Assembly: GCA_002304445.1 (NCBI GenBank)
Contig: NEVA01000004.1
Span: 1 to 64,000 of the forward strand
Reading direction: 5' to 3'
Source of the DNA: Opitutia bacterium Tous-C4FEB
Lineage (GTDB): Bacteria; Verrucomicrobiota; Verrucomicrobiia; Opitutales; Opitutaceae
Length of the DNA stretch: 64,000 nucleotides
Each line of letters opens with the position of its first letter. Position 1 is the first letter of the stretch. A program made the position numbers and the translations under genes. The notes below the pieces were generated by a model. It did not search any database. It was not told the DNA's origin and worked only from the letters and a program-made list of their open reading frames with translations. Of this stretch, positions 2,880 through 23,403 are shown piece after piece.

Positions 2880-3509
2880 ATGAAACTCTCACTCGCTCTG
2901 TCGCTCGCTGCGGTGGCCGTTGCCACCGGTTTCTCTTATGCCGCTATGAAAACGAATGCTTCCGAATCCACCGTGGTTCCCGCCAAAGACGCCCTCGACT
3001 GCAAGCCGGGCGAAGTTTCGGCGTGCGGGTTGCCGTCCAACGTCGTCATCGACCTCAGCAAGACGAAGGTCCAGCGCACCGATGCCGATTGGCGCGGTCG
3101 GCTCACGCCGATCCAGTATCGCGTCGCGCGGCAGCAAGGCACGGAGCCGCCGTTTCAGAACGAGTATTGGAACCACCATGAGGACGGCGTCTATTTTTCC
3201 GTGTGCAGCGACACGCCGCTGTTTGATTCGCGGGACAAGTTCGACAGCGGCACCGGTTGGCCGAGTTTCACGAAGCCGATCGAGAAAGCGTTCGTCGGCG
3301 AACACATCGACACGAGCTACGGGATGCGGCGCGTCGAGGTTCATGTGACCGTGGACGGCGCGCATTTGGGCCATGTTTTTGAAGACGGACCGCGCGCGAA
3401 AGGCGGGCTGCGTTACTGCATCAACAGCGCGTCGCTGCGGTTCGTCCCGCGCAAGGCGTATGAAGCGTGGGTGGCGAAGAATCAGGCGGGCGCGGTGGCG
3501 GCGAAGTAG
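2880..3509 (+). CDS. msrB: Exported peptide-methionine (R)-S-oxide reductase
   Basis: MsrB core [36 protein letters not shown]...[12 protein letters not shown]...[13 protein letters not shown]-terminal signal peptide. Confidence 0.9.
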
Positions 3510-3529
3510 GGGCGGGTCTTCACGAGTTT

Positions 3530-3615
3530 GTCATTGCGAGGAGGCCGTAGGCCGACGCGGCAATCCAGCTGGCGTCTCTGGTGGATCGCCGCGTCGCCAC
3601 GCTCCTCGCGATGAC
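3530..3615. repeat. Dispersed palindromic repeat (GTCATTGCGAGGAG family), copy a
   Basis: GTCATTGCGAGGAG..CGACGCGGCAATCCAGCTGG ... GGATCGCCGCGTCGCCACGCTCCTCGCGATGAC inverted arms. Confidence 0.85.
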
Positions 3616-3617
3616 GA

Positions 3618-3944
3618 TCATGGGGGCGGCGACGGGTCGAACCAGCCTTCGCTCAGGTCTCGCCACTCGGGGTTCACTTTTTCTATCAGCGCGATCTTTT
3701 TCACGCGCGAACCGGCTTTGAGCTGTTTCTCTCGGGCGATAGCGAGGGCTATGTCGCCATAGTCTTCGAAATAGACGAGCCGATCGACTTCGTAACGCTG
3801 GGTAAAACTCGAAGACGTTCGGGAGTTTTCCGGGTGTTGGTGCTGCCACGTGAGGCGCTCCAGGCTGTTGGTCACGCCGATGTAGAGCGTGCCGTTTTTC
3901 CGACTCGCGAGAATATAGACCCAGTAGGTCTTCCGGGTGCTCAT
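3618..3944 (-). CDS. Single-domain GIY-YIG nuclease family protein
   Basis: YWVYILASRKNGTLYIGVTNSLERLTWQHQ...REKQLKAGSRVKKIALIEKVNPEWRDL: GIY-YIG (YIL..YIG) core and conserved tail. Confidence 0.88.
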   Translation of the reverse strand: MSTRKTYWVYILASRKNGTLYIGVTNSLERLTWQHQHPENSRTSSSFTQRYEVDRLVYFEDYGDIALAIAREKQLKAGSRVKKIALIEKVNPEWRDLSEGWFDPSPPP

Positions 3945-3982
3945 CGCCCGGGCAGGCTGATTTTTCCCTGAACCATTTGCCC

Positions 3983-4237
3983 GTCATTGCGAGGAGCTTA
4001 ACGACGTGGCAATCCATCCGTGTGATGTCGGCGCCCATCGCGCTCTTCATCCCGATGAAAATCTGCCGTGCTATGAGGGCATGGCAGATGAGAAGGCGCG
4101 CTTTGCGCCGGAGATTTCTAGCTGGATTGCCGCGTCTCGCTCCGCGCTCCTCGCAGCGACAGGGCACGGAAATGAGGGCGCTGGCGCGCCTGAGGGGAAG
4201 TGATGGATTGCCGCGTCGCTGCGCTCCTCGCAATGAC
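3983..4237. repeat. Dispersed palindromic repeat (GTCATTGCGAGGAG family), compound copy b
   Basis: Begins gtcattgcgaggag...cgacgtggcaatcca, internal inverted copy ~4119-4163, ends tggattgccgcgtcgctgcgctcctcgcaatgac. Confidence 0.8.
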
Positions 4238-4270
4238 AGGGCTAAAGCGAGGGCGCGCGCGACGACTCGT

Positions 4271-5440
4271 TCACAGCGTCGGAAACTTCACCCACTTCGC
4301 TCCGGCTTTGCCGCTCTTCACGGCGGTCTCGATGAAGGCCATGCCGGCCAAGCCGTCGGTGATCGTCGGGAAATCGTAGCCTTCCTTCGGGGCTTTGCGG
4401 CCTTCGATGGAATCGGCGATGGCGACGGCGGCGCTGCGATAGACGTTCGCAAAGGCTTCGATGAAACCCTCGGGGTGCGCGAAGGGCGTGCGCGTCGCTC
4501 CGGCTGCGGCCGCGCTCACATAGCTGTTGCCGCGACGGTAAACTTGCTGCGGGGCGTCGGCTTTTTTCCAGATGAGCTCGTTGGGGTTCTCTTGGAACCA
4601 CTGGAGCGAGCCCTTGGTGCCGAAGACGCGGATGTTGAGGTTGTTTTCCTCACCGCTCGAAATCTGCGAGGCGAAGAGGATGCCTTTCACGCCGCCGCTG
4701 AAGCGCACGAGGCAGTTGCCGTCGTCATCGAGGAGGCGGCCGGGGATGAAGGTCGAAAGCTCGGCGCAGATCGACTCGACCTCGAGGCCGGTGATGTAGC
4801 GGGCGAGGTTATGCGCGTGGGTGCCGATGTCGCCCATGCAGTTGGAGACGCCGGAGACGTTGGGGTCCATGCGCCAGTTGGCGATTTTGCTCACGGTCTT
4901 CGCTTCGAGCGCGGTGATCGCGTAGCCCTGCGGATACTCGACGACGATCTTCATGAGCTGGCCGAGCTTGCCGCTGCGGACCCACTCGCGGGCTTCTTTT
5001 ACCATCGGGTAACCGGTGTAGTTGTGCGTGAGCGCGAAGACCTTGCCGGTCTTCTTGACGACGTCGCGGAGCTTGCGGCCCTCGGCGAGGGTGAAGCAGA
5101 GCGGCTTGTCGCACACGACGTGGAAGCCGGCCTCGAGAAACGTCTTCGCGATGGGGGCGTGGGTGTTGTTGCGCGTGACGATCGAGACGAAGTCGATGCG
5201 TTCGTCGGCGGGGAGGGCGGCCTCGGCCTTGGCCATCTCCTGGTAGGTCGCGTAAACGCGGCTCGGATCGAGGAAGAGGTCTTCGCCGGAGGCTTTGGAT
5301 TTGGCGGGATCGGAGGAGAAGCAACCGGCGACGAGATCGATCTCGCCGTCGAGCCGTGCGGCCATGCGGTGGACGGCGCCGATGAAGGCGCCACGCCCGC
5401 CGCCGATCATACCCATGCGGAGTTTGCGGTTAAGTTTCAT
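4271..5440 (-). CDS. Gfo/Idh/MocA family oxidoreductase
   Basis: Rossmann GMIGGGRGAFIG; EAGFHVVCDKPL signature. Confidence 0.9.
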   Translation of the reverse strand: MKLNRKLRMGMIGGGRGAFIGAVHRMAARLDGEIDLVAGCFSSDPAKSKASGEDLFLDPSRVYATYQEMAKAEAALPADERIDFVSIVTRNNTHAPIAKTFLEAGFHVVCDKPLCFTLAEGRKLRDVVKKTGKVFALTHNYTGYPMVKEAREWVRSGKLGQLMKIVVEYPQGYAITALEAKTVSKIANWRMDPNVSGVSNCMGDIGTHAHNLARYITGLEVESICAELSTFIPGRLLDDDGNCLVRFSGGVKGILFASQISSGEENNLNIRVFGTKGSLQWFQENPNELIWKKADAPQQVYRRGNSYVSAAAAGATRTPFAHPEGFIEAFANVYRSAAVAIADSIEGRKAPKEGYDFPTITDGLAGMAFIETAVKSGKAGAKWVKFPTL

Positions 5441-15751: not shown

Positions 15752-15825
15752 GTCATTGCGAGGAGCGCAGCGACGCGGCAATCCAGCTGGATCGCCACAC
15801 CCGGCTCGGCCGGGCTCGCGATGAC
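15752..15825. repeat. Dispersed palindromic repeat (GTCATTGCGAGGAG family), copy c
   Basis: gtcattgcgaggagcgcagcgacgcggcaatccagctggatcgcc...cgggctcgcgatgac. Confidence 0.85.
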
Positions 15826-23379: not shown

Positions 23380-23403
23380 GATTGCTTCTCGCAATGACAG
23401 GCT
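23380..23403. repeat. Half copy of GTCATTGCGAGGAG family repeat
   Basis: ggattgcttctcgcaatgacaggc. Confidence 0.55.

Follow-up and report, generated by a model that had tools for sequence, protein, structure and literature searches.

A single-domain GIY-YIG nuclease family is the likely partner of CGTC-tagged REP palindromes

A family of small GIY-YIG nucleases is likely the partner of the CGTC-tagged REPs, the palindromic repeats that were reported in 2013 without a dedicated transposase. We consider it fairly probable that these single-domain proteins are dedicated, sequence-specific partners of the repeats, that gene and REPs are mobile, and that gene-less REP dimers are their non-autonomous relatives. 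Few repeats are commoner in bacterial genomes than REPs, and RAYT is the known enzyme of their GTAG-tagged half.

In 2013, Di Nocera et al. (PMC3733652) assigned most REPs to two super-families, one tagged GTAG and the other CGTC. The CGTC REPs described there often carry TGTC or CCTC as their tag, with a stem of 8-9 bp that starts with AT, a loop of 4-5 nt and a CCA-like tail, and they take in the Neisseria dRS3 repeats (CGTC-1) and the Rickettsia repeats RPE-4 and RPE-6. A dedicated transposase was apparently absent for this super-family, GIY-YIG is not mentioned in the paper, and the Verrucomicrobia/PVC group is listed with GTAG repeats, not CGTC repeats. Our searches of papers for GIY-YIG proteins linked to REPs returned nothing relevant.

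The case studied here lies in a stretch of 64,000 nucleotides from Opitutia bacterium Tous-C4FEB (the window), where a GIY-YIG nuclease-family gene of 108 aa, recognized as an ORF with a Pfam match, occupies positions 3618-3944 of the minus strand. It is the only stand-alone GIY-YIG gene of the whole genome, the second PF01541 match falling inside a 529-aa frame. An earlier note on this DNA had described the gene as bracketed by palindromes; the coordinates hold, but the end of this minus-strand gene that lies 2 nt from the left palindrome is its 3' end, the stop and not the start. Two REPs of ~35 nt each, joined tail to tail, form the left palindrome (3530-3615), a dimer whose left half is monomer A (3530-3567, plus strand), with a TGTC tag, an ATTGC...GCAAT stem and a CCA tail, and whose right half is monomer B (3582-3615, minus strand), its GTC tag adjoining the nuclease gene at its 3' end. 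Three copies make up the right compound (3983-4237): monomer C (3983-4016, plus strand, CGTC tag), 38 nt upstream of the ATG; the degenerate monomer D (4123-4160, minus strand), which reads GTCGCTGCGAGGAG; and monomer E (4204-4237, minus strand, TGTC tag), at the outer edge of the inserted segment. Copies with no adjacent gene had also been claimed, and they are indeed a gene-less dimer of the same family between two ORFs (15752-15825; plus strand 15752-15785, minus strand 15791-15825) and, from a repeat search of the window, a truncated gene-less monomer (23381-23398, minus strand).

With up to two mismatches, GTCATTGCGAGGAG has 7 occurrences in the window where 0.74 would be expected, and 0 of 100 shuffles reach 7. 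Across the whole genome, the 14-mer tag-and-stem pattern with at most one mismatch gives 41 copies against 1 for a reversed-pattern control, and full two-arm repeats number 25 against 0. The window copies read TGTC- or CGTC-ATTGC...GCAAT-CCA, with arms GTCATTGC..GCAATCCA, and resemble the CGTC REPs of Di Nocera et al. in the CGTC/TGTC tag, the AT-start stem, the C-rich, CCA-like tail and the occurrence of dimers. Around family genes in general, GTCAT follows a T or a C in 243 of 262 repeats, full window copies having TGTC or CGTC, and 241 of 262 tails start with C; as the detector included AT, the AT start of the stem is circular for the survey, though not for the window copies. Many stem-arm spacers measure 7-9 nt and others 13-45 nt, so that spacers in the survey often exceed the published loops, and the window monomers combine a short perfect stem with a weak fold. 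Folded as single-stranded DNA, the left dimer reaches -35.7 kcal/mol (z=-7.3 against shuffles), and none of three monomers folded better than shuffled sequences. Judged by tag, stem and tail, the window repeats are confirmed as CGTC-type REPs.

A homolog scan of 84,980 species yielded 80 loci in ~20 phyla, from Patescibacteria to Proteobacteria, chosen by protein similarity alone and encoding single-domain GIY-YIG nucleases of ~95-110 aa. REP density in these loci, measured with a generic detector, was 8.54/kb within 100 nt of the gene, 4.5/kb at 100-200 nt and 0.16-0.25/kb beyond 800 nt, and three permuted-tag controls gave 0 repeats within 300 nt of family genes. Where enough flank was available (n=69), a REP lay within 300 nt in 62 loci and on both sides in 47, compared with 7.3% and 0.19%, respectively, at random positions in the same loci; by eye, the seven loci missed by the detector mostly hold tag or tail variants. 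Because perfect stems frequently measure no more than 5 bp, a stricter detector with a 6-nt stem overlooked most of the REPs and was replaced. No REP was detected at 25 of 72 extra paralogues. Two detector-negative Sinorhizobium loci (L337 and L339) hold, by eye, flanks of the form CTCATTCCTGTG..CACAGGAATCCAG, with a CCTC-like tag, a variant that Di Nocera et al. (PMC3733652) allow for CGTC REPs.

The enrichment of the nuclease beside the repeat that the note had proposed to look for is thus found across ~20 phyla, and it bears on the simplest alternative, namely that REPs mark insertion-prone intergenes in which the gene landed by chance. REPs are indeed intergenic and clustered, and the intergene concerned in the window genus also took a RAYT element. 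Such hitchhiking is nevertheless effectively refuted by the scarcity of both-side REPs at other ORFs of the same loci (6 of 632, against 47 of 69 family genes; Fisher P=2e-49), by their absence from distant GIY-YIG genes (0 of 24 bracketed) and by the co-variation of protein and repeat stem across phyla described below. Within the order of the window, REPs bracket the closest homologs in six of six cases, L055 and L062 included, in contrast to more distant GIY-YIG homologs, and at least five ATTGC repeats occur in 5 of 5 genomes with a close homolog versus 3 of 127 others (P=1.8e-7, the repeats flanking the gene being counted). The commonest nearest-neighbour layout (25 of 47) has tails toward the gene and tags outward, which places the gene in the loop of a REP dimer. 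Left and right stem types match in 36 of 47 loci, against 14.5 after shuffling (maximum 22), and even copies more than 1.5 kb from the gene match its stem type more often than shuffles (0.39 vs 0.18, P<2e-4).

Empty sites in relatives, which the note had suggested seeking, were found in the two genera covered by the comparison, that of the window and that of genome G080. The segment absent from window congeners (3519-4270, without strand) fills the intergene between an msrB-like gene (2880-3509) and a Gfo/Idh-type oxidoreductase gene (4271-5440), and within the window genus only the window genome carries the nuclease unit there. At least six congeners lack the unit at this site; five more distant ones have a short intergene with a terminator-like hairpin only, and G132, whose oxidoreductase is 94% identical, has a short intergene with GTAG-type repeats and no RAYT gene. 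In G139 (94%), the same intergene holds a RAYT gene (NF047646, PF01797) bracketed by GTAG-type repeats (L065:504-1500, equivalent to window 3510-4270). One intergene has therefore received both kinds of REP unit.

This coincidence of place gives some footing to the idea that the GIY-YIG gene is cargo of a REP-bounded unit moved by RAYT or another transposase, which we nonetheless regard as quite unlikely. None of the 80 family genes has a GTAG-like repeat within 100 nt (0 hits), CGTC repeats flank no tyrosine transposase gene in the survey of Di Nocera et al. (PMC3733652), and a cargo gene would not co-vary with the repeat stem.

The edges of the unit are sharpest in G080, where the alignment of two gene copies from separate places spans exactly 370 bp, running from GTCATTCTG to CAGAATGAC(A), and stops there. 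The unit is absent at both sites in congeners, and the same boundaries are seen again at further loci of G160, G162, G150 and G152; at one of the sites (L055), G160 and G144 hold gene-less REP copies instead of the unit. Repeats at L055 and at the other locus (L062) are of the type GTCATTCTG..., unlike the window type. No target-site duplication was evident by eye at these two sites, whose congeners are too diverged for base-exact empty sites. The G080 pair differs by a dN of 0.14 and a dS of 1.25-1.7, which indicates purifying selection on the protein. In fifty genomes, matches to the family gene number up to 11 per genome. Together, tag-exact edges, multiple copies and empty sites show that the gene travels together with the repeats; gene and flanking REPs behave as a mobile unit with discrete edges at the GTC tags. 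REP copies that carry the sequence immediately within the left end of the G080 unit may be its internal-deletion derivatives, but only 1 of 10 G080 stretches gave a ~82-bp dimer. In Azospirillum lipoferum 4B, plasmid AZO_p3 (L335) carries a family member with REPs inside the suf operon, between sufB and sufC.

The stems of REPs around family genes are mostly ATTGC, ATTCT or ATTCC, and their type follows the protein. On a tree of 85 proteins, REP type changes 8 times against 29.9 after shuffling (0 of 200 shuffles as low), and, once the motif columns are left out, 14 times against 30.0 (minimum 25); many nodes of the tree are weakly supported and its resolution is poor, so the phylogenetically independent contrasts behind these counts are few. 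The association is also visible within G080 alone, where a KAGSR protein occurs with ATTGC repeats and two KGWLR proteins with ATTCT repeats. Among the training loci, Gly at residue 78 goes with ATTGC in 45 of 45 and Trp with ATTC[C/T] in 31 of 32; read from the repeat side, Gly78 is found in 45 of 46 ATTGC proteins and Trp78 in 31 of 34 others. Hold-out loci paired Gly78 with ATTGC in 7 of 7 cases, which brings the overall count to 52 of 52, and Trp78 with C at that stem position in 65 of 72. In an AF2 model, residue 78 sits in the turn between the last two helices. The residue-78 rule thus tracks the repeat stem, with exceptions. A two-residue code that added position 82 was near perfect in training and failed in the hold-out loci, where 13 of 14 proteins of the window phylum predicted to have CT had CC, and only residue 78 was kept. 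Rhizobiales proteins with Trp at the position-82 equivalent pair with ATCCT stems.

These features also bear on a regulatory reading, in which the REPs would be terminators or RNA hairpins that insulate or autoregulate a small gene. REPs commonly lie just past gene ends (PMC3733652), and 7 of 70 intact genes have an xxTGAC tag at their stop codon or next to it. Such a bracket, which we hold to be very unlikely, would account neither for the sharp edges of the unit and its empty sites nor for the agreement of stem type between the two sides or the residue-78 co-variation.

PF01541 (E=1e-10) was the sole domain found in the window protein by profile search, which returned no HUH/Y1 transposase domain. 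Y10, Y21, E72 and N91, invariant across 86 family members, are intact in it, as are G23 and H35, the latter followed by a 4-residue insertion, and residue 78 is Gly, as expected for an ATTGC-type protein. Position 31, which a hand alignment with I-TevI R27 and UvrC R42 leads us to take as the catalytic Arg, is Arg in 84 of the 86 and Leu in two, the window protein and that of L145. By its sequence, the window copy is probably impaired and may be inactive as a nuclease; it is also, given the replacement of the catalytic Arg by Leu, probably an old or decaying member of the family. The AF2 model (pLDDT 86) has PDB 1ZG2 as its top match and Slx1 next. The UPF0213/YhbQ-like GIY-YIG proteins (PDB 1ZG2, 1YWL) are the nearest solved structures by sequence and fold, although they are more distant, and the distant GIY-YIG homologs examined had no REP brackets. 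The proximity of Slx1, a branched-DNA nuclease, to the modelled fold hints faintly at a structured substrate. A spurious 237-aa ORF (3520-4233, minus strand) crosses the repeats and yields repeat-derived peptides (ARSVATRR..), a likely source of false annotation.

A homolog in N. gonorrhoeae is 48% identical to the window protein (E=2e-25) and has dRS3-type repeats on both flanks. It is probably Ssn, reportedly the subject of work by Chenal et al. in Nat Commun in 2025, which is said to be a stand-alone GIY-YIG site-specific ssDNA nuclease of Neisseria that acts on the multicopy repeat NTS; that work reportedly emphasizes natural transformation and tool use. On the strength of this identity and these flanks, the window family very likely contains Ssn, which it resembles in being stand-alone and of similar size and in having a multicopy genomic repeat as its putative recognition sequence. 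The kind of enzyme may therefore be known already, and the word "undescribed" in the earlier note is uncertain, since the Neisseria member Ssn has reportedly been characterized. The gonococcal record examined (L334, NZ_CP119140.1) is 2.17-Mb and chromosome-sized, and was deposited as a plasmid.

Ssn brings to the fore the strongest rival, in which the protein is a site-specific ssDNA nuclease that reads the repeats as landmarks, limiting or steering DNA uptake and recombination without mobilizing them; the repeats would spread otherwise, and control or co-travel would keep the gene near its sites. The gonococcal homolog fits, its dRS3-type flanks belonging to CGTC-1 (PMC3733652), and stem co-variation requires recognition only, not mobilization. 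REP-rich genomes without a detectable gene fit as well; the note had regarded such genomes as grounds for refutation, and they exist in part, namely G131 (66 repeats) and the congeners G132, G134, G135 and G139 (13-38 repeats), most of these assemblies being incomplete MAGs. The repeats thus persist without need of the nuclease gene, and gene-less dimers in such genomes could be remnants. Tag-exact edges, multiple copies per genome and empty sites speak against this reading, as they show the gene moving with the repeats, and we consider it rather unlikely. Landmark and mobilization roles are compatible.

Under the favoured reading, that of a dedicated and mobile partner, the protein would bind the REP in single-stranded or cruciform form, contact the stem through the turn that holds residue 78, and cut at or near the GTC tag; host replication or repair would then copy or move the REP-bounded DNA, and gene-less REPs would be mobilized in trans. 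From the fold, the conserved active site and the sequence co-variation we infer that the family may cleave the REP hairpin. Indiscriminate cutting of duplex DNA is unlikely, because genomes carry dozens of intact sites. Transposition by the family is likewise something we infer; GIY-YIG enzymes are not known as transposases. More tentatively, with somewhat less than an even chance, CGTC REPs and GIY-YIG genes would form one ancient mobile class, in which a hydrolytic nuclease and not a transposase spreads units and gene-less palindromes, its specificity set largely by the residue-78 turn.

The closest parallel is the RAYT/REPtron, which likewise consists of a small single-domain gene bracketed by inverted REPs, with dispersed gene-less REPs that persist in genomes without the gene, whereas its enzyme is of the HUH/Y1 type and its tag GTAG, against a hydrolytic GIY-YIG fold and a CGTC tag here. 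The RAYT-like role proposed in the note stands in part, as a mobile partnership of nuclease and repeat, given the bracketing and the empty sites, but the window protein itself, with Leu at the catalytic Arg, may be inactive. Insertion sequences and MITEs also pair an autonomous gene-bearing copy with short gene-less inverted-repeat copies; unlike them, the present unit is without a DDE/HUH transposase, showed no target-site duplication and has ends that are themselves palindromes. With a partner family beside CGTC REPs, including the dRS3-type repeats of Neisseria, the gap of the missing enzyme becomes directly testable. The Gly/Trp switch that tracks the stem lends itself readily to testing specificity by mutation and may be of use in predicting the targets of small sequence-specific nucleases.

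A phage origin of the family was considered and rejected: 50,697 phage records gave no match at E<1e-8, and IMG/VR gave many matches without REPs, the overlapping viral scans having been de-duplicated by contig before counting. Plasmid p1 of Planktothrix agardhii (L338) carries a family member in a defence region, with an MmeI-type restriction enzyme on one side and DISARM drmA on the other.
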